Positions 3,230 to 34,087 of a stretch of DNA of 64,000 bases are shown here, piece after piece. This stretch comes from Chloroflexota bacterium. Lineage in GTDB: Bacteria > Chloroflexota > UBA11872. The stretch covers positions 62,001 through 126,000 of the forward strand of contig JAJDUU010000014.1 of NCBI GenBank assembly GCA_022826485.1. Direction: 5' to 3'. Numbering within the stretch: the stretch's first letter is position 1; each line of letters begins with the position of its first letter. The notes beneath the pieces were generated by a model. It did not search any database, had not been told where the DNA came from, and worked only from the letters and a program-made list of their open reading frames with translations. The position numbers were made by a program, and so were the translations under genes.

Positions 3230-4396
3230 ATCCGAATCCTGCTGATCGTCAACGGCATCGCCGGGCAAACGGCTGGCGGTGTAGCCGGCGGTGACATCCG
3301 CGTCATCGAAGTGGCCAAGCGTTGGGCATGGGCTGGTCATGACGTCCACCTGATGGGCAGCGCGGCGAGCCTTGACTTGTTTCGTCGGCGAGGCCTTGAC
3401 GTGCAGCCGCACCTTGTCGCCTGGCAGGGCGGCGAGAGCCGTTGGTCATTCATGCTGCGCGCCATCACGGTGTGCGTCGGGCTTCCACGATCGCTGCTGC
3501 AACTGCAACCGGACGTGGTCGTGAGCGCAAACGAACAGCTCTACGACACCCTTCCCGGAATGCTGCTCAAGCTCTGGTATCGGAGGCGCGTGCGCTGGGC
3601 GGTGGTGGCCCACAACATCCCGGCGTGGCGCTTTTGGCAACGCGAGGGCCACCGCTGGTTTCAATCGCTGGCATTTCTCGTGTCCGAGCGGCTGTCGCTC
3701 CTGGTGGCGGCGCTGGGCGCCAACCACCTGCTGGCTGTGTCCCCCGCCACCACGCGACAGCTCACGGCCTTGGGGTTTCCGGAGCGGCGTGTGACCACCG
3801 TCCCCTGCGGCGTGGACGTGGCCGCTCTCGACGCCATCGCCCGCACCACCACGGAACGCCCGTACGAGGCGGCGACGATCATGCGCGTCTCGGCCGAGAA
3901 GGGAATTTTCACGCTCATTGACGCCTGGAAGCTCGTGGTGGCGGCGAATCCCACAGCCAGATTGGCGGTCATCGGCGGCGGCATCGACATGGAAGCCGCT
4001 CAGGCGCGGGTCCGCGCGCTCGGCCTGGAAGACAACATCGACTTCTTGGGGCTCATCCTCGATACCACGCGGGCGTTCACCACGCTTCGCACGGCGAAGG
4101 TGTTCCTCCATCCGTCGTACAAGGAAAACTGGGCGATCGCGATCGGCGAAGCGATGGCGCTGGGCATGCCGGTGATCGCCTTCGACCTGCCGGAGCTCCA
4201 GGAGGTCTGGGGCGAGGCGTTTCGCGCCGTTCCGCGGGGCGACTCGTCGGCGTTCGCCGACGAAGTCCTGGCGCTTCTGGCCGACGAGCCGGGACGCCGT
4301 GACCTTGCCCAACGAGGACTTGCCCGCGTGCGCTCCCTCGATTGGGCCGACATTGCGCAACGCGAGATCCAGGAGATTACGGGCAATCGGAGCTAG
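3230..4396 (+). CDS. Glycosyltransferase family 4 (GT-B fold); non-canonical start
   Basis: A GT-B retaining glycosyltransferase of about 388 residues, presumably moving a sugar from a nucleotide-sugar donor to a lipid-linked or surface glycan. The C-terminal donor domain has the EX7E-type stretch ENWAIAIGEAMALG followed by PVIAFD. The N-terminal strand IRILLIVNGIAG and a GG-rich loop are clearly coding and continue upstream of the first GTG (3311). The frame closes at a TAG at 3212-3214, and no ATG, GTG or TTG occurs between that stop and 3311. ATC at 3230 (giving MRILLIVNG) or CTG at 3239 are the candidate starts; otherwise there is a frameshift after the ATG at 3207. The domain assignment is secure, the start is not. 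Confidence 0.85.
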   Translation: MRILLIVNGIAGQTAGGVAGGDIRVIEVAKRWAWAGHDVHLMGSAASLDLFRRRGLDVQPHLVAWQGGESRWSFMLRAITVCVGLPRSLLQLQPDVVVSANEQLYDTLPGMLLKLWYRRRVRWAVVAHNIPAWRFWQREGHRWFQSLAFLVSERLSLLVAALGANHLLAVSPATTRQLTALGFPERRVTTVPCGVDVAALDAIARTTTERPYEAATIMRVSAEKGIFTLIDAWKLVVAANPTARLAVIGGGIDMEAAQARVRALGLEDNIDFLGLILDTTRAFTTLRTAKVFLHPSYKENWAIAIGEAMALGMPVIAFDLPELQEVWGEAFRAVPRGDSSAFADEVLALLADEPGRRDLAQRGLARVRSLDWADIAQREIQEITGNRS

Positions 4397-4420
4397 CCGG
4401 CCGACGGACGCCGCCGCTCG

Positions 4421-5302
4421 CTAGGGTGACCGCTTGACCGCGCGAATGGCCAGATTGGTGCTTGGCCCAAGCGGGTCCCGGAGGCTGTCGTTGCGACGAT
4501 CGACGCGCTGCATCAGGCGCAGGCCCCAGGTGATCGGGTTCAGGCTCAGGCGCCGGTGCGGCGTGTGCTCGTACTCGAACTTTTCCATCGACCGGTAGGC
4601 GGCCGAAGTCTCCGGCAGTCGTCCGTAGAGCTGCTTGCCGGTCCACAACAGCATGTGGTTGAACGGCAGGCACCACCGGGTGAGGCCCTCGAAGTGCGTG
4701 ATCTCCAGGCGCTCCTCGCCCGCCACAAGCTCGCGAAACTCACCCGGGCGATAGAGACGCAGATGCATGGCCCACAGCCCGCCCCAGAAGCCGGAGTCCG
4801 GGCTGAAGTGACCCAGCCCAAGCCGCTCACGCACCCAGTTCAACGGATCCCATAGCGCCGGGTAGTTCGCGCAGGGCACGGTCAGCGCGGCCACGCCGCC
4901 GGGCTTGAGCACCCGGGCGATTTCGCGCACCACGCTCGCGTCGTCATCGACGTGCTCCAGAACCTCGGAGCACACCAGCCCGTCGAAGCTCTCGTCGCGA
5001 AACGGCAATCGGGCGCCGTCGCCAAGCAGCCAAACCTGCCTGGACCCGTGGACGTCGCGATCCACACCCTGGTGCAGAATCGGTGGAGCGGCGTCCAGCG
5101 CCACGACGCGACACGCAAACGCCTCGCGCAGCGCCAGGCTCACGAAGCCCTCGCCGGCCCCGAGATCGAGGATGCGGTGCTCGGGCCGAGGGTTCAGGTA
5201 CTCCGCAACGGATTGGATCCGCCGGCGATAGGACAGGTCGCCGACATTGGTGAGGACGTGGGCCAGCCGCTCCCACGCCGTCGGCTCAGCGGTGCGGTGC
5301 AT
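4421..5302 (-). CDS. Class I SAM-dependent methyltransferase
   Basis: A 293-residue protein with a canonical SAM-binding core: ILDLGAGEG (motif I), VVALDAAPP, FDGLVCSEVLEHV (motif IV) and LKPGGVAALTVP. The C-terminal half is long and rich in aromatic residues (WDPLNWVRERLGLGHF) and may bind a lipid-linked sugar. It lies tail to tail with the GT4 gene and head to head with the first GT-C-like gene, inside the glycan locus. Methylation of a polysaccharide, or of a polyketide-like headgroup, is plausible but inferred. The ATG start at 5302 directly precedes the family N-terminus. Confidence 0.8.
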   Translation of the reverse strand: MHRTAEPTAWERLAHVLTNVGDLSYRRRIQSVAEYLNPRPEHRILDLGAGEGFVSLALREAFACRVVALDAAPPILHQGVDRDVHGSRQVWLLGDGARLPFRDESFDGLVCSEVLEHVDDDASVVREIARVLKPGGVAALTVPCANYPALWDPLNWVRERLGLGHFSPDSGFWGGLWAMHLRLYRPGEFRELVAGEERLEITHFEGLTRWCLPFNHMLLWTGKQLYGRLPETSAAYRSMEKFEYEHTPHRRLSLNPITWGLRLMQRVDRRNDSLRDPLGPSTNLAIRAVKRSP

Positions 5303-25244: not shown

Positions 25245-26006
25245 TCACCGTCGTTCCTCCTGTTGCGGATCGATTGATGGCCCCACTCTTACTGCTGGGC
25301 CTATCTGTGTATCGTTCTCGCTGCCTTCCGGCTGGTCATTTAGGCGGTATAGTCCGACGAGAGTCATCGGAGTTGCGGATGATAGGAGTAATTCCTTGGG
25401 CCCTTTCCTTCCCACTCGCAACACTTGAAAGTCCCCGTCCTCGTAAAACCAGAGGAAGAGAATGCCCTCCCCAAGAGCGGGTTTGTTCCCTGCATCAGAG
25501 AAAGGCAGGGACAACACTTCTTCTCCTCTAAAGATAAGCTCAGGCTGTACCTGCTTGCCGATGGGGTGCGGTTGAAGCTTGATCTTCGAAATCAGGGCAA
25601 TGAGTTTCGGAAAGTCGCTCGCCACGGTCGCCCAGAGCACTGTAGGATCGATACTCCAAAACTTGTGCGCAAGTCTGATGCGCATTCCTTTTAGGTTCGC
25701 CCACGCGGTATCACCCTCGGCCTCAGATTCGATGGGTATCTCAATCAGTCGAGGGAGTATCTTGTTGTTGATTCTGTCCAACTGGGTTATCGACTCCTGC
25801 ACATTCTCGGCGTACTTTGCCAGTGCCCAGAAGAGATCGTTGGACTCGTTGCAGTCGTCAACAGAAAGTCGGCTTGCAAGGTCCAGTGCACGGTGTGCAT
25901 TGGTGAGGATCCTCTCAAACCAAGTGCCAACGTCGCGAATGGCCGAATCATCCATCCGTCGTTGCTTGCCTTTTGTGCTTGATCTCTTTCGCCTCTTTGT
26001 CATCAC
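25245..26006 (-). CDS. DUF86/HepT-like HEPN protein with an unknown C-terminal domain
   Basis: A 253-residue protein. Residues 20-140 are helical and carry a HepT/DUF86-like segment: WANLKGMRIRLAHKF, then IDPTVLWATVASDFPKL. It has an R-x4-H motif (Arg109, His114), the catalytic pattern of HEPN ribonucleases. The usual Asn after the Arg is Ile. Residues 150-253 form a second, beta-rich region (ELIFRGEEVLSLPFSD; FQVLRVGRKGPKELLLSS) that I do not recognise. GTG at 26006 or ATG at 26003 overlaps the stop of the upstream micro-ORF. The gene is visibly less GC-rich than its neighbours, suggesting transfer. Confidence 0.6.
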   Translation of the reverse strand: MMTKRRKRSSTKGKQRRMDDSAIRDVGTWFERILTNAHRALDLASRLSVDDCNESNDLFWALAKYAENVQESITQLDRINNKILPRLIEIPIESEAEGDTAWANLKGMRIRLAHKFWSIDPTVLWATVASDFPKLIALISKIKLQPHPIGKQVQPELIFRGEEVLSLPFSDAGNKPALGEGILFLWFYEDGDFQVLRVGRKGPKELLLSSATPMTLVGLYRLNDQPEGSENDTQIGPAVRVGPSIDPQQEERR

Positions 26007-26068
26007 CCGTTCCGTCCCATGCGGTGCTTGATGTCGGAGTTAATGACGAAGTCCAGATCCTGTTCCAT
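26003..26068 (-). CDS. Micro-ORF, 21 residues (copy A)
   Basis: A 21-codon ORF starting at ATG 26068, whose peptide ends DFVINSDIKHRMGRNG. Its stop overlaps the GTG/ATG start of the HEPN gene. It is homologous in peptide and DNA to the micro-ORF at 26611-26664 (DFITNYGIKYRMGRSG). Silent-looking changes between the copies are consistent with selection on the peptide. Both sit directly upstream of HEPN- or MNT-type genes. It is either a leader or small protein, or the end of a repeated element. Confidence 0.45.
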   Translation of the reverse strand: MEQDLDFVINSDIKHRMGRNG

Positions 26069-26084
26069 TGAGGCCCTACCGCTT

Positions 26085-26255
26085 TTCCGGTGCCCGGCCG
26101 CTCTCGCCGCTCGCGCGATGCCTGTTGTCGGTTCTCAGCATGCCCTATCGAGGGAATATTCCACGGCGCATGAACTCCACCGCCACGTTCAGGTCTTCCG
26201 CTGAGAACCGCAGCCAGCGTATGGCTTCCTGGACCACGGGATCAGGGACGCTCAT
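26085..26255 (-). pseudogene. HEPN-domain gene, truncated and frameshifted
   Basis: ATG at 26255 opens a normal HEPN protein (VQEAIRWLRFSAEDLNVAVEFM), which stops at a TAG after 36 residues (GIFPR). In another frame the downstream DNA still encodes GHAENRQQASRE (about 26116-26141), resembling the HEPN FHAQQAAEKA helix. A frameshift plus stop has therefore inactivated it. The start overlaps the MNT nucleotidyltransferase gene by 14 nt, the usual arrangement of MNT/HEPN toxin-antitoxin pairs. Confidence 0.65.
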
Positions 26256-26559
26256 ACACGACAGTCCCTTCCCGGAGCGCGGCGTGGAGGACGGTCCCCG
26301 CCACCTGTCCTCGACCGGCAATCTCATCGGGCGTGGTCACCACAATGTCCTTGCCGACCGGAAGGTCGCCTAGCAACCGCCGCATCTCGACCGCGGCCCG
26401 GCGCTTGTCCGGCGCGTCGCCCATCACCACCAACAGGTCCACGTCGCTCGACGGCGTTGCCCCGCCGCGTGCCCGGGAGCCAAAGAGCACGACGCGAGAC
26501 GGCTGGAACCGCGCCACGATGCGGTCCACCATGGTGGCGACCACCGCTTCCATGGTCAT
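26242..26559 (-). CDS. MNT-type nucleotidyltransferase (MntA-like antitoxin)
   Basis: A 105-residue minimal nucleotidyltransferase. The catalytic pattern is complete: LFGSRARGGATPSSDVDLLVV, with Gly27-Ser28 and the metal ligands Asp39/Asp41. In MNT/HEPN modules the MNT protein modifies or neutralises the HEPN ribonuclease. Here the HEPN partner, overlapping by 14 nt, is broken, so this gene may be an orphan antitoxin or may act on another HEPN such as the one at 25245. It starts at ATG 26559, with ATG 26553 as an alternative. Confidence 0.85.
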   Translation of the reverse strand: MTMEAVVATMVDRIVARFQPSRVVLFGSRARGGATPSSDVDLLVVMGDAPDKRRAAVEMRRLLGDLPVGKDIVVTTPDEIAGRGQVAGTVLHAALREGTVVYERP

Positions 26560-26610
26560 GGCACGTCCTCACACCCGCCGCTCAGGACGCCTGGCACTAC
26601 CATCGGCCCC

Positions 26611-26664
26611 TCACCCCGAACGCCCCATGCGGTACTTGATGCCGTAGTTTGTGATGAAGTCCAT
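26611..26664 (-). CDS. Micro-ORF, 17 residues (copy B)
   Basis: A 17-codon ORF whose peptide is MDFITNYGIKYRMGRSG. The ATG lies 7 nt after the stop of the large methyltransferase gene, and AGCAGG just upstream could serve as a ribosome binding site. It is homologous to the micro-ORF at 26003-26068. No known family was recognised. The repeated DNA spans roughly 45 nt in each copy. Confidence 0.45.
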   Translation of the reverse strand: MDFITNYGIKYRMGRSG

Positions 26665-26671
26665 CCTGCTT

Positions 26672-29600
26672 CTATCCTCGATCCTCGAACGAGGTTCTTA
26701 CGACCAATGAGTGCTCCAACTCGATGTCTTCCCACAGGTCGCCTAGGCCCAATGCTTCTAACCAAACCTTGTCAATTTTGTCCGTGATGTGCCGGCATCT
26801 GGCGATGTTGTAGTTGCCGATGTTCTTTCCAGCGTTTAGCTTGAAGACTATATTGTCGTTCATAGCGTCTTCTAACGACGGCAATAGCGGCAATAGATGG
26901 TTTTTCTGGCGAACGGTTAGCTGGCTCGGTCCCAGGGGGGCGCTAGTGAAGCCGCTCTGAGTCACATCAAAGTCGTCGCCAATGGCCGCCCACCAGACAA
27001 AGAGAATCTTGCCATTCGTTAAGAGCATGGACAAATCTCTATCATCGGATTCCAGAAAGTGGACGGTTCCGTACTTTGTTTGGGGAATCAGGTTGTCGTC
27101 CTGACCGTATGCTGGCGGTTGGTTTATACAGAATGTCAGCCAGTTATAAGCGGTCTGCTTGAAGTGAAGATTATGCGCGCCGGATCGACGCGGAGCAAGC
27201 TCGTTCTGGAGGCGGTAGGCGCTACCCTCTAGTAGTGACTCGAAGCTCTGTAGAATGCGTTCACTTCCTAGCTTGGGAATCAATCCGCCAAATGCTGATG
27301 GCGAAAACGGTGCATACGATAGTGCGCCAAACAGAGACGGACGCTGCGAGTCGAACCATCTGTGAAGACGTGTCGTGAAACTGCACTTCTGTGAATCTGA
27401 CGATTTACGGGCCAGATAGATCGTGTTGCGTACCCTCGTATCGAAGCTGAAGAGGGCAGACGGAATGCGGCCGAACGACGAGAACCAAATGGAATCGCAT
27501 TCCTCGTATAGGTGAGAGCGTAGGCTAGTGAATCCTGAGCTGAATGTGAGGCTAAGCGGCACGATCATGCTTGTCCAACCGGCGCTACGGCAGACGTTGA
27601 CGCTTCGCTCTGCGACCAGTGCATATATGTCTGGGCAACTTGACGTTTGAAATCCCCTTAGCGTGTATTCCTTGGCGACCGTCCGCCGAGCCACGTAAGG
27701 AGGATTCCCGATCACAGCGTCAAATCCGCTCTCGCTTATGGCCCCGTGAAACTCGACGAACCAGTGGAATGGCTTATGGCTGTCGCCCCAAGCGGTGTAG
27801 GCGTCCGAGTCGCCCAGGTCGATTCCGTGCTCGCCGGCGAGGTAGCGATTGAGCTCTGTGCTCAAATTGTCCAGACGGCGGCGCAGGTCAGCCTTATGGT
27901 CGGCAGTGATCTCGCCGCCGAGCATGGTCTGCTGTCGTTGAAACTGGGTAAAGGCAGCACTGGCTAGCCGCGCCTGCTCTTCGATGTGGTCGAGGACTGC
28001 CTGTTCTTCGGGAAAAACCTGCCTGTACTGACCGTCGGGCATCACAGTCATGGCCCGGCGAACGTCATCGAGGGAAGTAAAGCCCACGAGGGTATTGCCG
28101 GCGCGAATGTTGAAGTCGATGTCGGGCAGCGGCTCCAGCTCGTCCACCGTGCCGGCCTGCGCCGCCAGCTTGAGGAAGAGCCGCAGCTTACAGATCTCCA
28201 CCGCCTCTTCCATGATGTCCACGCCGTAGAGATTGCCGATGATGATCGACTTGAGGATGTAGTAGCGACGGTTGGGGTGGCGCGCGGCCTCGGCCAGATC
28301 TCGGCGGAAGTCGATGAACTTGGCCGGGCTGTGCTTGCCGCCTGACTGGTCCAACTCGTCCACGAAGGCTTCCATGCGCTCCAGGCAGGCGTCGTAAAGC
28401 GGTTCCAGCACGTTGAGGGCGGCGAAGAGGAAGGCGCCGGAGCCGCACGCGGGGTCAAGCACCGAGACCTCTCGGATGGCCTTCCAGAAGGCCCGAAGCA
28501 GCTCGGGGCCTTCGCAATCCAGGATCACGTCCTGGGCAAACTGCCGAGTGTCCAGGTTCAGCGTGATCAGGTCATTGATCTGGTGGACCTCGCCGTCCAC
28601 CAGCTTTTCCCAGATTTCATAGTGCCGCTGGCGTCGCGCGACGTGCTCGCGCCAGGTCTCGGTGGGCAGGGCGTGGGCCTCGTCGGCCGGCTCGTTCCAG
28701 CGGCCGCGCTGCGCCACGTCGTCCACGCCGGGGGCGATGTGTGGCGGAAGCTCAACAGCGACGCCTTTCTGCATGGCCGGATAGATATAGCGGTCCGGGT
28801 TCTCGCTCAGCAGCCGCCAGAGCGCGGAGTCGCGCCGGAACGCGATGGCGCATTGCTTTCGCGCCATGTCGAATAGCCGCGGAATGACGGTGTTCTGCGA
28901 GATGTAGCCGGTGATGTCTTCCTTGGTGTAGTAGGCCCCCATCTGCTTCTGATTGACGTACTTCTCGAAAATGTAGCCCAACACGTCGGGATTGACCTCG
29001 TTGTCGGCCCGCAGCGGGCGCTCGTCGAGGTGCCATTGGTAGGCGTCGAAGAAGGCGAACAGCCTCTCGAAGGCTGAGTCGTCAATCTGAATGTCTTGGT
29101 ATCGGTCTTCGAGTTCATGCACGTCGAAGATGCCGCCGTTGAGGTAGGGCACCGTGCCGATGAGTGCGTCGAGGTCTGCGGCCCGATCTTCCGGCAACAG
29201 TCCCAGCCCCTCGTGGAAAAACCGCCGCAGGAAGTGCCGGTAGAAGCTGAGGAACTGACCTTCACCGCGCAGCCGCTGCACGTCCGTCAGCCGGTTGCGC
29301 AGGTAGTCCCGGTCGCCGTCCAGGAAGCCTTTCTTCTGCACAAAGTAGATGAACATCAGCCGGTTGAGCATCAGGGACGTGTACCACTCGCGATCGTCCA
29401 TGACCGGGATGCCCTCCACGAACTCGAGGAAGGCGTCGTGCTCGGTCTTGAACCGGGTGTAGAAGCGTTTGGTGACACGATCGACGTCGAAGGCCCTGCC
29501 CGCGCGAACCGTCACCTCGGCAATGGAGGGTTCTTCGTCCAAGCTGAAGGCCAGCAATTGGAGCTTCTGGATCAATGGCTCGCCGGTCTGGTCCCGATGG

Positions 29601-29947
29601 AAGGCGTGCTCGCGGTAGAGCGGTGAGCGCCCGGGCTGCCGCTTGACCCACTGCCAGACCTGGCGCGTTGCAGCGTCGTCGACAAAGACCAGCAGGTGCT
29701 CGTGGGTCTGCTTTGCCAGTTGCCGTTCGATCTTCATGCGCACGGCGCGCTCGGGTACTTCCGGGTTTCGGCACACGTAAGCAACCAGTCCGCTCTTTTC
29801 CGCCACCGCCCCCAGGTCGTAGGCGTGGTCGTCAACCTCGGCGGACTGGTTGCCGGGCGGCCGGTCCCAGCCCAGCTCTTCGATGAACAGACGCTGGAAG
29901 TCGAAGTCTTGGACTGCTTGCCTGACCTGCTCGGAGCGGAACGCCAC
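26672..29947 (-). CDS. Eco57I/PglX-type adenine-specific DNA methyltransferase
   Basis: A 1091-residue protein that methylates adenine N6 in DNA. Motif I is DPACGSGAF at about residue 495, and the catalytic motif IV is NPPY at about residue 745 (27689-27716). A long N-terminal region, with the FDVDRVTKRFYTRFKTEH segment seen in these proteins, precedes the MTase core. The C-terminal 340 residues are the likely target-recognition region and are markedly AT-richer than the rest. No PD-(D/E)xK nuclease is evident. GTG at 29947 is chosen; the frame runs on to 30079 but would overlap the PIN gene with non-family sequence. The PLD-helicase upstream is the likely partner. Confidence 0.87.
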   Translation of the reverse strand: MAFRSEQVRQAVQDFDFQRLFIEELGWDRPPGNQSAEVDDHAYDLGAVAEKSGLVAYVCRNPEVPERAVRMKIERQLAKQTHEHLLVFVDDAATRQVWQWVKRQPGRSPLYREHAFHRDQTGEPLIQKLQLLAFSLDEEPSIAEVTVRAGRAFDVDRVTKRFYTRFKTEHDAFLEFVEGIPVMDDREWYTSLMLNRLMFIYFVQKKGFLDGDRDYLRNRLTDVQRLRGEGQFLSFYRHFLRRFFHEGLGLLPEDRAADLDALIGTVPYLNGGIFDVHELEDRYQDIQIDDSAFERLFAFFDAYQWHLDERPLRADNEVNPDVLGYIFEKYVNQKQMGAYYTKEDITGYISQNTVIPRLFDMARKQCAIAFRRDSALWRLLSENPDRYIYPAMQKGVAVELPPHIAPGVDDVAQRGRWNEPADEAHALPTETWREHVARRQRHYEIWEKLVDGEVHQINDLITLNLDTRQFAQDVILDCEGPELLRAFWKAIREVSVLDPACGSGAFLFAALNVLEPLYDACLERMEAFVDELDQSGGKHSPAKFIDFRRDLAEAARHPNRRYYILKSIIIGNLYGVDIMEEAVEICKLRLFLKLAAQAGTVDELEPLPDIDFNIRAGNTLVGFTSLDDVRRAMTVMPDGQYRQVFPEEQAVLDHIEEQARLASAAFTQFQRQQTMLGGEITADHKADLRRRLDNLSTELNRYLAGEHGIDLGDSDAYTAWGDSHKPFHWFVEFHGAISESGFDAVIGNPPYVARRTVAKEYTLRGFQTSSCPDIYALVAERSVNVCRSAGWTSMIVPLSLTFSSGFTSLRSHLYEECDSIWFSSFGRIPSALFSFDTRVRNTIYLARKSSDSQKCSFTTRLHRWFDSQRPSLFGALSYAPFSPSAFGGLIPKLGSERILQSFESLLEGSAYRLQNELAPRRSGAHNLHFKQTAYNWLTFCINQPPAYGQDDNLIPQTKYGTVHFLESDDRDLSMLLTNGKILFVWWAAIGDDFDVTQSGFTSAPLGPSQLTVRQKNHLLPLLPSLEDAMNDNIVFKLNAGKNIGNYNIARCRHITDKIDKVWLEALGLGDLWEDIELEHSLVVRTSFEDRG

Positions 29948-29987
29948 GGCTAGCCCTCGGCGTCCGGCTTGCGCTGGGCCCGGGTGC

Positions 29988-30392
29988 TCACTCTGAGACG
30001 AGACGCGCGTGGGGGAGGGAGGCCATCCGTCGGTCGAGAGTGAGCGTGTCCAACCCGGCCCGCGCGTAGTCGTTGGCAATCAGGCGGTCGAAAAGCCCTG
30101 GGCCGCCGGAGGCGGCGAGGGCATCCAGCACGGCGCGCCCGTTCAGCGGGGCGACCAGGCCGCTGGTGAGGGTGGTGTGAAGCTCGGCGCGGGCGTCCTC
30201 CTTCGAGACGCCATAGTGGCGTTGCAGGGTGACGTAGGTCTCCCCGATGACCTGGTTGGACGCGAGTATCTCGGTGTCAGCTGCGCAGAGGGCGCTGAGC
30301 CTCTCGACGCAGAGCGTGAAGAGGTCAGGGGGCTGGCCGGTCACCAGCCGGATTAGAACCGACGTATCAATCCCGATATTTGTACGGATCAT
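29988..30392 (-). CDS. PIN-domain ribonuclease toxin (VapC-like)
   Basis: A 134-residue PIN protein. The acidic metal-binding residues are in place: IDTSVLIRL (Asp near residue 9), SNQVIGETYVTL (Glu), LFDRLIANDYARAG (Asp) and a late TLDRRM. It probably cleaves RNA when not bound by its antitoxin. The gene starts inside the AbrB-type antitoxin gene (26-nt overlap). The pair lies between the helicase and methyltransferase genes on the same strand. Confidence 0.87.
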   Translation of the reverse strand: MIRTNIGIDTSVLIRLVTGQPPDLFTLCVERLSALCAADTEILASNQVIGETYVTLQRHYGVSKEDARAELHTTLTSGLVAPLNGRAVLDALAASGGPGLFDRLIANDYARAGLDTLTLDRRMASLPHARLVSE

Positions 30393-30612
30393 ATCCCTCG
30401 TCGCGGAACTTGCGGATGTCGAAAGGTGGAGTGCCCGGCTTTATCTTGTCGCCGAGGGTTCCCAGCTTCGAATAGTCGATTCGCCGTGGCTTTAGGGTGT
30501 ATCCGTCGGGACCCTCTTGCAGCTCGAGCCGATCGCCGGGGCCGACGCCCATGGCGTCCAGCACGTGCTTGGGAAAGGTGACCTGGCGCTTGGACGTAAT
30601 CTTCACGAGCAT
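30367..30612 (-). CDS. AbrB/SpoVT-type antitoxin
   Basis: An 81-residue protein with an N-terminal swapped-hairpin AbrB domain (VKITSKRQVTFPKHVLDAMGVGPGDRLEL) that binds DNA. A C-terminal tail (GTPPFDIRKFRDEGYDPYKY) probably wraps the PIN toxin. It is expected to repress its own promoter. The ATG at 30612 has a GGAGGC-type Shine-Dalgarno sequence just upstream. Confidence 0.9.
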   Translation of the reverse strand: MLVKITSKRQVTFPKHVLDAMGVGPGDRLELQEGPDGYTLKPRRIDYSKLGTLGDKIKPGTPPFDIRKFRDEGYDPYKYRD

Positions 30613-30688: not shown

Positions 30689-33600
30689 CTACGTCTCATC
30701 GCCGCGCAGGCCCAGTGAGCAGATGATCTGCGGCTCCTCCGGCGCCGTGTCGTCTTCGACCACGCAGAGGCGTTCCTCCTGATGCAGGGTCGTCACCAGC
30801 TCGGCCAGTCCCTCGTCGGACATGCCGCTGCGCATTTGTCGGTTCAGCGTGTCGCGGGCGGTCTCACGCAAGGGGAAACGGTAAATCGCCTGATGAGCTC
30901 GTTCGAGCTCGGCACTTACGAAGAGCGTGCCCCGCCCCTGCTCGATGTAGTTCTTGAGGCGTTCGTAGACGCGGAATCGGGCTCCAGACGGCCGGCCAAG
31001 CTGCCCGCCTACACGCTTTTCCTCGGCGGCTGCTTGCCGCACGGCGTTTGTCACCAGCTCATGGTGGCGCTCCTGGCGTGGCGCGGCGGGCGTGTCCGGT
31101 GCGCAGCGGGCGGCATTGAGGATGGCGAAGTGCGACTGGCTGACGGTGTTTCCGTTGGCGTCGAGGCGGACGAGGGTGTCGTTGTCGGCGGCCGTCCGCA
31201 GGTAGATCAGCACGCCGGCGGGATCGTCACCGTCACCACGGCCCTCTCGCATCCCAGGGGAGATAGTGCGTGTGCTGTAGACGACGTCCGGCAGATCCTC
31301 GATTCGCCGGCGCAGCGATGGATCGTCGTCGGTGGCGTTCTTCCAGATCTGGTAGGCGTAGGACGCCAGGTCGATTTCGGTGTCCTCGTCGCCGTCAAGG
31401 ACGCCGGCTTGCTCGTTGTAAAGGTCGAGAATTGGCCGGTCCTCGTCGTCCTCGAAGTAGGCTTCGTCGGTCCCGACGACTTCCGCGTTCTCCCGTAGTC
31501 GCGTCCGCACCCGCGCGCGAAGCCGCAGCACCCGTTCCACGCCGTCGGCGGGCAGGAACGAATAGCAGAGAATCTCTGCGGCTTGCTGCCCGATACGGTC
31601 GACGCGGCCCGCCCGCTGGGCCAGCCGGATGATGGCCCAGGGCAGGTCGTAGTTGACCACGATGGCGCAGTCCTGCAGGTTTTGGCCCTCGCTGAGAACA
31701 TCGGTGGCGACAATCACGCGCAGTTCGTCGTCGGGCGAAACTGCGTCGCGTCTCCCGTTGCTGACCGGGCTGAATCGACCGGCTGTGGCTGTCGGGCTCT
31801 CCGAGTTTCCCGTGACGCCTTCCAGCTGTTCGAGTGCCGGACGCTCGGTGGCGCCATCCCGGAGTTGTTCCGTGAGGTAGTCCACGGTGTCGGCGAACTG
31901 GGAGAACACAAGCACTTTGTCTTCCGGATGGTCGCGGGTGAGCAGGTCGTGAAGCCGCTGCAGCTTCGTGTCATGCCGCGGCTCCCATTCGCCTGCCTCT
32001 GCCAGCACTCCCAGCAGCGCCTCGGCATCGGCCCGCAGATCGTTGGCGAGCTCGGGCTTGAATAGGTCGGCCCGCAGCCAGTCGTAGCGGTTCCGCCGTG
32101 GTCCGGCCAGCCGCGTGTAAGCCTGCGCGGCCTGCGCTTGAAAGGCTTCGGTCGTGTATATGCCGGGAGTTGAATGCGACTCGTCGGCGTCGTCGAATTG
32201 GAATCGTGCGGTGATCCGATCCGTATCGGTCACGCGGGTGTCCAGGTCGTCGGCGCTTTGGGTGCCGATGGGAATCTCCAGTCCCTGCTCAATCGCGTGG
32301 AGCACCAGCAGGTTTCGGATTACGTGCCGTTCCAGCGACTGAATGAACGCCGGGCCGCTGCTTTCCAGCCTCTTGAATAGATTGGTGCGACAGAATCCCT
32401 TGAGCCGTTGACCGGCGCGATTGAGGTTGTCGATTACCTGCTGCTCTACGTTGTTGGGTGGCTGGTCGGGCGACGGGTCTACGTGGTTTCCCAGGCCATA
32501 GCGCGGCAGTTCGAGCGCGTTGATCACGCTCACGACCCGGTCCGAATACAGGCGGGCGTATTGATCATCGGCGTTGCGCGGGTCGATCGAGAACCCGAGC
32601 GTGCGCGGTACTCGCGTGGGGAAATACGAAAGGGTTCCGTCGGCGAACTGCAAGAACTTTCGGCCGTCGTCCGGGTCGGTTTCCGCGTAGTTGTCCTTAA
32701 TGAAGCTGCGCGTGCGACGAACCATGTAGAGCCGCATGAGTTCCCGCCAGTCGTCGGCGAACTCGCTCTTCTCGAAGGCCGCCAGCGTGCCAAGACCGCA
32801 TTGGTGCTGGCGAATGAACTCGGTTTCGCCCATTTCGCGCAGTTTGCGATCGGGCCGCACGCCTAGGTCGTGGTCGACTGGCGTGAAGAGGCCGAGCTGC
32901 GCGGAGAGGTCGCCGTAGGTCTTGTTATAGGGCGTGGCCGACAGCAGCACGCAGCGGCTTTCGTTTTCGGCGATGTACTCGCGGATGGCGCGGTAGGTCC
33001 GGCCCTCGGGATTCCGCAGGTTGTGGCTCTCGTCCACGATTACGACGCGGTAGCGGCGCAGGGTGGGCAGCTGGTTGATGGCCACACTGATCGACATCAC
33101 TCTGGCCCGCAACTGGTAGCGGTGCGCGTAGTCCTCCCACATGTCGGTCAGGTTCTTGGGACAGAGGATGAGCGTTTCAAGCCCGTGGTCTTCTTCCAGG
33201 ATTTTTGCGACCGCCGTGGCCATGAGGGTCTTGCCGAGCCCCACGACGTCGCCGATCAGGGCGCCCCCGCGTCGGTTGATGTGATGCGCGGCGATGCGGG
33301 CCGCGGCAGCCTGAAACTCGAAAAGTGCGTCGCCGAAGATGGGCGGTATCTTGAATTCCTGCAGGCCCGCCCGCGCGTCCTGCGACAGGTGATAGGCCAT
33401 CTTGAGATAGATGTGATAGGGCGGAATCGGTACCTCCCGCGCCCAGCTCTCATCGATGATCTCGGCAAGTTCTTCTGAGATGTCGATGCACAGGCGGTCG
33501 TCCCAGCGGTCGTCAAACCAGCGCTGAAGCTTGGCGCAGGCGTCATGGTCGAGCACGTCGACGTTTAGCTCGCCCTGCTTGGCCAGACCGGCAAGGGTGA

Positions 33601-34087
33601 GGTTGCTGCTTCCCAGATAGCCGGTGGTTGGGTTGTTGGGGTCGGTGCGGTGGAGGAGGTAGAGCTTGGCGTGCAGGGGGTAGCGCAGGAAGAGCTTGAC
33701 GACGACCTTTCCGGCCTTGATTTGCGCCTTGAGCCGCCGTAGCCCGGCCTCGTCTTCATTACTGGGGGAGCCGGTGGTCAACTGCTGCCGAAACTCTGCC
33801 GCCACCTGCTGGCGTAGCCGCCGGGCTGCTTGCGAGTCAACGAGATCATCGCGGCTCAACAGGCTCAGCGCAGACCGCAACTCGTCGTGCGGCAGCCGCT
33901 GCATCCCAACTAACAGGCGGCAGCGTGAATCGTCGGCACCACTCCAGCCGTCAACAAAACGGTCGATCAGCCGCCAGCCGCGCAGGTTGAAGTAGCCGAC
34001 GCAGAAATCGGCTCGTTGCGAGATCCTGAGGGTCTCGGTGAGAGCCGGTAGAAGTTCTGACGTGATGTTGTCGAAGACGCGCGGCAC
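30689..34087 (-). CDS. PLD-nuclease/SNF2-like helicase fusion
   Basis: A 1132-residue protein. The N-terminus has a single phospholipase-D nuclease motif: HAKLYLLH (His139, Lys141), then GSSNLTLAGL and ELNVDV. A superfamily 2 helicase follows: Walker A GDVVGLGKT at 279-287, DESH at about 352, LLSATPYNK, then VLVFSQFADTVDYL and the C-terminal IVATDVLSEGQNLQDC and RLAQRAGRVDRIGQ. Such proteins act with PglX-like methyltransferases in restriction-like phage defence. The nuclease is presumably the PLD domain. It is the first gene of the minus-strand array. Confidence 0.88.
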   Translation of the reverse strand: MPRVFDNITSELLPALTETLRISQRADFCVGYFNLRGWRLIDRFVDGWSGADDSRCRLLVGMQRLPHDELRSALSLLSRDDLVDSQAARRLRQQVAAEFRQQLTTGSPSNEDEAGLRRLKAQIKAGKVVVKLFLRYPLHAKLYLLHRTDPNNPTTGYLGSSNLTLAGLAKQGELNVDVLDHDACAKLQRWFDDRWDDRLCIDISEELAEIIDESWAREVPIPPYHIYLKMAYHLSQDARAGLQEFKIPPIFGDALFEFQAAAARIAAHHINRRGGALIGDVVGLGKTLMATAVAKILEEDHGLETLILCPKNLTDMWEDYAHRYQLRARVMSISVAINQLPTLRRYRVVIVDESHNLRNPEGRTYRAIREYIAENESRCVLLSATPYNKTYGDLSAQLGLFTPVDHDLGVRPDRKLREMGETEFIRQHQCGLGTLAAFEKSEFADDWRELMRLYMVRRTRSFIKDNYAETDPDDGRKFLQFADGTLSYFPTRVPRTLGFSIDPRNADDQYARLYSDRVVSVINALELPRYGLGNHVDPSPDQPPNNVEQQVIDNLNRAGQRLKGFCRTNLFKRLESSGPAFIQSLERHVIRNLLVLHAIEQGLEIPIGTQSADDLDTRVTDTDRITARFQFDDADESHSTPGIYTTEAFQAQAAQAYTRLAGPRRNRYDWLRADLFKPELANDLRADAEALLGVLAEAGEWEPRHDTKLQRLHDLLTRDHPEDKVLVFSQFADTVDYLTEQLRDGATERPALEQLEGVTGNSESPTATAGRFSPVSNGRRDAVSPDDELRVIVATDVLSEGQNLQDCAIVVNYDLPWAIIRLAQRAGRVDRIGQQAAEILCYSFLPADGVERVLRLRARVRTRLRENAEVVGTDEAYFEDDEDRPILDLYNEQAGVLDGDEDTEIDLASYAYQIWKNATDDDPSLRRRIEDLPDVVYSTRTISPGMREGRGDGDDPAGVLIYLRTAADNDTLVRLDANGNTVSQSHFAILNAARCAPDTPAAPRQERHHELVTNAVRQAAAEEKRVGGQLGRPSGARFRVYERLKNYIEQGRGTLFVSAELERAHQAIYRFPLRETARDTLNRQMRSGMSDEGLAELVTTLHQEERLCVVEDDTAPEEPQIICSLGLRGDET

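Follow-up and report, generated by a model that had tools for sequence, protein, structure and literature searches.

We analysed a 64,000-nt stretch of Chloroflexota DNA (the window), in which the minus strand carries a defence locus with two very short reading frames at gene junctions. In minus-strand order the locus reads PLD-Snf2 helicase, MazE/PIN pair, methylase, first micro-ORF (tail 1), MNT nucleotidyltransferase, HEPN remnant, second micro-ORF (tail 2) and HepT-like gene (Table 1). Profile PDLC03628 covers residues 54–1113 of the methylase, the full-length architecture of a predicted IIG enzyme, and by sequence the protein is a member of the Eco57I / Type IIG restriction-modification family with a predicted nuclease. 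Its annotated start is a TTG codon that is probably ~45 codons too early, because homology starts only at about residue 35–52. The pair between the helicase and the methylase has MazE/PIN or VapBC-like character and recurs in the same helicase-pair-methylase layout on cyanobacterial plasmids (L083, 3179–3812; L085, 1188–1821); this joint, at which no tail repeat was noted, thus appears to accept toxin-antitoxin modules as well.

Table 1. Features of the window locus, with coordinates in the window
Feature	Position	Strand	Description
PLD (HKD) + Snf2 helicase, same defence locus	30689..34087	minus	Pfam PLDc_2, SNF2-rel_dom, Helicase_C; PADLOC HKD+Snf2 / DrmD-like
MazE/PIN or VapBC-like pair	29988..30612	minus	
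Type IIG-like methylase (Eco57I domain)	26672..30079	minus	PF07669, E=6e-24; PADLOC REase_MTase_IIG PDLC03628, 985 bits
Orphan methylase tail 1	26611..26664	minus	MDFITNYGIKYRMGRSG, 17 codons + stop; profile 30.8 bits
MNT nucleotidyltransferase, putative antitoxin, intact	26242..26559	minus	Pfam NTP_transf_2, E=5e-11; cargo between tails
HEPN toxin remnant	26145..26255	minus	36 codons (MSVPDPVVQEAIRWLRFSAEDLNVAVEFMRRGIFPR, stop), cut short ahead of catalytic part; homology to L158
Spacer, right-hand cassette joint	26069..26144	minus	HEPN remnant to tail 2
Orphan methylase tail 2	26003..26068	minus	MEQDLDFVINSDIKHRMGRNG, 21 codons + stop; profile 27.8 bits
HepT-like (HEPN) gene 3' of tail 2	25245..26006	minus	PF01934, E=2.6e-9

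The MNT gene has homologues of 66–80% identity in related genomes, several of which adjoin full-length HEPN genes. Its counterpart in L158 (same order) is 80% identical, and there too a full-length HEPN gene comes next. The window matches the L158 DNA from 26559 to 26182, a homology that ends within the HEPN gene and ~115 nt short of tail 2, and the spacer that follows the remnant has no homology in related MNT/HEPN loci. An HEPN-MNT module consists of an MNT gene next to a complete HEPN gene with its catalytic motif; the window HEPN ends at 36 codons. Because the toxin is cut to this length, the pair is unlikely, as judged from its sequence, to work as a toxin-antitoxin system today. A lone antitoxin possibly remains, an intact MNT beside a truncated HEPN.

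A sequence-only reading of the window had described twin micro-ORFs sharing the pattern DF-x-x-N-x-x-IK-x-RMGR-x-G, and we find this pattern in both minus-strand translations. It had placed the first of them 7 nt past the methyltransferase stop, which is exact (26665–26671). The second was said to overlap the start of the HEPN gene: a 4-nt overlap (GTGA) does exist, but with a separate, longer HEPN gene that is not the partner of the MNT. Tail 2 lies between the MNT/HEPN remnant and this HepT-like gene. Homologues of the latter (253 aa) are too remote to reveal which gene first stood behind the tail in the lineage of the window.

The two micro-ORFs form a 53-nt direct repeat with 79% DNA identity and a distance of 608 nt, the strongest repeat of the stretch, and their likeness is far beyond chance. 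When we ran a profile of intact methylase tails over the six frames of the window, it matched solely these two copies, which are also the only tail matches in the 3.17-Mb assembly. Five genomes of the same genus contain no tail match, and the window arrangement is therefore accessory. The copies had been said to differ in DNA while keeping similar peptides. The differences are real but not mainly synonymous; over the 16 codons compared they fall 4/4/4 on codon positions 1, 2 and 3, an even spread that goes against reading the copies as peptides.

The methylase tail and its detached copies

By homology, both micro-ORFs are orphan copies of a conserved C-terminal tail (...DEELDFIINYDIKYRMGR, stop) of the Eco57I / Type IIG methylase family. 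A query with the complete enzyme yielded 80 methylase relatives from genome contigs, all six frames of which we scanned. In the majority of these the intact enzyme ends in ...IDEIDRVLAKHYGFTDEELDFIINYDIKYRMGR.. and a stop, and both window peptides align to the conserved last ~15–45 codons of the methylases. The peptide is thus present in other genomes, as the C-terminus of a methylase of ~1,100 residues; solved structures included no homologue. An earlier suggestion, that the micro-ORFs could be the coding edge of a duplicated recombination element, comes close to this evidence, the element being the 3' end of a Type IIG methylase gene.

The window methylase itself carries an alternative C-terminus (...VVRTSFEDRG, stop) in place of the family tail, and its closest relatives (L003, L005, L013 and L037) share a ...VVRTSF... 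ending. Three of them (L037, L013 and L003) have a tail remnant 3' of the methylase, each differently decayed, as in the window; the L003 remnant is more decayed and reads 'MDFNDIKCWMEQ' directly past the methylase stop. Tail 1, which corresponds to the ~16 final codons of a lost methylase 3' end, is therefore best explained as the leftover of an older gene end, whose place the present methylase has taken.

Searches for the tail in ~1,340 genomes and in fetched loci returned 88 orphan copies from Chloroflexota, Cyanobacteria, 'Poribacteria', Nitrospirota, Planctomycetota and other groups; the sample as a whole comprised ~1,700 genomes, and most genomes are metagenome-assembled. Of the 53 orphans that share a stretch with a methylase, 52 are found downstream of it in the same orientation, and the opposite strand has none; in the sole exception (L144) the tail is at a contig edge and precedes a second methylase. 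Whole-genome searches in the genomes of 16 loci placed almost every tail copy at the one locus, the orphans being nearly all 3' of the methylase by no more than a few kb, and a dispersed genomic repeat was ruled out because the orphans lie nearly all in cis and downstream. The remaining 35 of the 88 have no such methylase in the fetched stretch, some being located at contig ends and others after other defence genes; part of the set may therefore be plain deletion scars. The tail matched no phage, and the 10 plasmid records with a tail match showed no array. Tandem related methylases, with the tail region either their own or shared, were seen in L147, L143, L144 and L046.

A control of 80 loci that had not been selected for tails contained 16 isolated methylase fragments in short frames. 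All 16 are C-terminal, 14 of them beginning in the last 60 of the 1,089 profile positions. Of the two exceptions, one comes from a gene that is split ahead of an IS-like transposase gene (the second methylase of L046) and one is a frameshifted gene end (L081). As the fragments are all C-terminal, they reflect a property of the gene end and not general decay. The 5' edge of the orphans varies from tail position 2 to 37 (~35 codons), and 38 of the 88 have, at most 40 nt upstream of them, the end of an ORF on the same strand. Orphans decay by truncation and frameshift. Growth of the arrays next to the methylase was considered on the basis of this decay, which tends to increase away from the methylase, though not significantly (12 steps down, 5 up), and was not accepted.

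In intact tails from 50 loci, the fraction of C-ending codons is 0.79 in the core versus 0.53 elsewhere in the gene, AT-rich genomes included. Conservation of the tail at synonymous sites is weakly above that of other conserved motifs, one of which is similar. A constraint on the tail at the DNA level, which had initially appeared strong, is weak by this comparison and is not established.

Cargo and exchange between genomes

Between one tail and the next orphan we find modules of ~0.3–1.2 kb (46 intervals, median 762 nt). By Pfam, their cargo comprises HicA/HicB, PIN_3, ParE/Phd, RelB/ParE, PemK, MNT/HepT and DUF433/DUF5615, and further XisH/XisI, DUF4258, XRE/Peptidase_M78, an OLD nuclease (OLD-type ATPase) and YhcG. 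Among the intervals scanned, Pfam recognises a toxin-antitoxin gene or pair in at least 18 of the 46, a raw count, and ~7 further intervals hold a defence-type gene. The clearest array, in L051, reads methylase, DUF6883, tail, antitoxin/PIN_3, tail, HicA/HicB, tail, ParE/Phd, tail, DUF433. The tie to HEPN/MNT genes that the sequence-only reading had envisaged dissolves in this wider set, in which orphan copies stand before and after many unrelated genes. Where the usual methylase is missing, the upstream neighbour of an orphan is often another defence gene: a ResIII helicase in L112, the MTES_1575 helicase-nuclease in L113, an AAA_11/AAA_12 helicase in L115, an N6_N4 methylase in L105, a GmrSD C-terminal domain in L119 and a different Eco57I methylase in L150. 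Non-defence cargo was seen in 'Poribacteria', as tandem, near-identical cassettes for secreted coiled-coil proteins (~140–180 aa), each closed by a short tail (L053, 9562–11442; L134, 3029–4217; L039, 9294–9965; and L133).

Comparison of loci reveals blocks that are common to genomes with different surroundings. From the tail core onwards, L037 and L034 are 90% identical over ~800 bp, the tail being an orphan in L037 and intact in L034; upstream of this block L034 has the tail-bearing methylase and L037 a methylase with the alternative C-terminus. L113 and L038 have the tail and the XRE/M78 genes in common (1,166 bp, 74%), with unrelated genes upstream. Both L145 and L071 contain a methylase tail, XisH and XisI, to which L071 adds a module of tail, MNT and HEPN, while in L145 the next tail directly follows XisI. 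The MNT/HEPN block of L071 is present at 90% in L146 in a different order, and a DUF4258-containing block of L062 is found there at 92%.

Exchange also reaches into the tail. Microcystis-type tails carry two indel markers, and all four combinations of these are present (four-gamete test), which requires recombination within the tail, unless an indel arose twice. Certain states are confined to orphans and common to several genomes: L086 (three copies), L087 and L094 have KYPMG for KYRMG, and L092, L146 and others have LDDL for LDFI. On a tree built from 35 cyanobacterial tails, 6 changes account for the distribution of orphans versus 11.1 in shuffles (0 of 500 shuffles as low), and one clade consists of orphans alone from three genomes (support 99/98). 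The common orphan-only states and the grouping in the tree thus indicate that orphans propagate as orphans; local displacement of each methylase tail alone would not give an orphan grouping across genomes. Taken together, our comparisons document the homology of the tails, their strand and position, the presence or absence of modules, the replacement of upstream genes, recombination within the tail and orphan lineages that cross genomes.

A possible route and its alternatives

We favour as the probable explanation that the methylase 3' end serves as a portable recombination boundary for the exchange and stacking of toxin-antitoxin and other defence cassettes. Each copy would then be an old joint, at which DNA recombined in directly upstream of, or inside, a methylase gene end. 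In the window, tail 1 would have been left when the resident methylase with the alternative C-terminus replaced a tail-bearing one, and tail 2 would close a small MNT/HEPN toxin-antitoxin cassette whose toxin has since been cut short. More generally, a small module with its tail copy, or a longer piece of donor DNA that begins within the methylase, may recombine with the resident tail, so that the methylase retains an intact end, the tail copy stays behind the new module and modules stack downstream. Crossovers would take place in the tail itself, with homologous recombination as the likeliest process, and cassettes may travel as tail-flanked units or circles. For the first tail of a module, homologous joining on one side and illegitimate joining on the other would suffice. 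Stacking would presumably benefit either the host or the modules.

Tail copies in one locus are often 80–90% identical over ~100 nt, their edges are variable and no recombinase stands out, which makes homologous recombination the economical agent. Among the 25 commonest Pfam families of 111 flanking ORFs there is no integrase, a survey that could miss a rare one. The variable 5' edge of the orphans is unlike a fixed crossover point and counts against the boundary model, as do the lack of a recombinase in this survey, the orphans that have no methylase in the fetched stretch, the weak synonymous-site signal, the non-significant decay trend, the non-defence cargo and the predominance of metagenome-assembled genomes.

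Plain debris is an alternative that we consider improbable: methylases would have been repeatedly replaced or deleted, with their last codons left as scars that play no part in recombination, and toxin-antitoxin modules would merely accumulate in a defence neighbourhood. Clear deletion scars do occur, as if the locus had collapsed onto the tail, in L130 (~4110–4690, minus strand), where a short ORF with helicase-like sequence lies beside the tail, and in L136 (4188–4448, minus) and L142 (1493–1818, minus), where internal methylase pieces are fused to tails. The frameshifts and truncations of orphans, and the even decay of the window copies over codon positions, fit debris too. Yet the scars stem only from the last ~5% of the gene, the modules sit between successive tails and are present or absent as blocks, orphan-specific variants are common to different genomes and contexts, and the tail is internally recombined. 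At the other extreme, the tails could belong to an undescribed cassette-capture system in which the IIG methylase 3' end would be a dedicated recombination site that collects, reshuffles and keeps toxin-antitoxin and defence modules in several phyla, served by trans-acting machinery and with an integron-like function, the cassette site being the end of a protein-coding gene; we regard this possibility as doubtful.

Site-specific integration, with the methylase 3' end as attachment site, the tails as att copies and a recombinase acting in trans, on the pattern of elements known to insert at the 3' ends of genes, seems to us very unlikely. Att-mediated accretion would be expected to regenerate the gene end and to produce tandem arrays on one strand, and the core is conserved in its DNA, as seen in its C-ending codons; against this, no recombinase family stands out nearby, the 5' edges vary and the codon signal shrinks in comparison with other conserved motifs, one of them equal.

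Finally, the tails might encode leader peptides or micro-proteins that control the toxin-antitoxin gene behind them, the small-protein idea of the initial reading, which the methylase homology and the even codon-position differences of the window copies leave without support. Many orphan frames are open, window tail 1 starts with ATG, and the stop overlaps the start of the next gene at offset -4 in 10 orphans. The same overlap is equally common after intact methylase tails (11 cases), and start-codon coupling as a function was rejected for this reason; starts near the stop barely exceed the frequency at random positions (33/83 versus 0.31 expected). Starts are not conserved and Shine-Dalgarno signals are rare (an in-frame start before the core in 44 of 73 testable orphans and missing in 29, an SD-like motif in 10 of 73), and codon-position bias is relaxed in orphans (p3 fraction 0.59 versus 0.68, Fisher p = 0.04). 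Orphan tails are gene ends and not small proteins, with neither the conserved starts nor the purifying selection of the latter, and a peptide function is so improbable that we dismiss it.

Significance and relation to known systems

Defence islands gather restriction and toxin-antitoxin genes; to our knowledge, the route by which single modules join such an island in turn, always at one site, is mostly unclear. A short scar of 15–45 tail codons that closes each module would make past insertions countable and modules orderable, and it offers a sequence handle for finding cassettes and for testing the recombination route. Annotators should be warned that such small ORFs are gene ends and not peptides. 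In the open-licence PMC literature we found no description of methylase-tail arrays.

The peptides are the C-terminal tail of Type IIG / Eco57I methylases (PF07669; PADLOC REase_MTase_IIG), of which the window methylase is a member. Unlike in ordinary Type IIG genes, the tail is here detached and repeated downstream without the enzyme body, in the window as in many other loci. HEPN-MNT modules have been associated with restriction-modification systems (PMC3710099), and the window cassette, an MNT/HEPN pair beside a restriction-modification gene, follows this association; the parts of that work that bear on the association do not mention methylase-tail repeats bounding the modules.

As in integron arrays, small cassettes in one orientation, often toxin-antitoxin genes, are each closed by a repeat; unlike in integrons, a methylase coding end serves as the repeat and no integrase is seen. 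IntI is not among the 25 commonest Pfam families of the 111 flanking ORFs, from which a single copy or an enzyme acting in trans could escape. Integron attC sites were rejected as a candidate, since 83 of the 88 orphans (94%) lack the inverse RYYYAAC / GTTRRRY core pairs. Pairs resembling these cores occur in 5 of 88 orphans versus 0.7% of random segments, a small unexplained excess.

In SCC-type elements, as in others that insert at gene 3' ends, the joint (here the 3' end of rlmH) is restored, and stacked elements are separated by direct repeats of it. The loci described here are similar in that the joint is the 3' end of a methyltransferase gene, is likewise restored and recurs as repeats. 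They differ in that the gene encodes a Type IIG methylase and the cassettes are 0.3–1.2 kb long, with one or two genes and without a recombinase: ccr serine recombinases are found neither in the one- or two-gene cassettes nor among the 25 commonest flanking families, where rare ones could hide. An SCC-type element was rejected, as the 5' edge spans tail positions 2 to 37 in place of a fixed att core. In CDI and Rhs loci, conserved segments recombine and displaced modules accumulate downstream as orphans. Those orphans carry the variable toxin end, whereas in the methylase loci it is the conserved end that is left behind, and the variable cargo consists of separate toxin-antitoxin genes.
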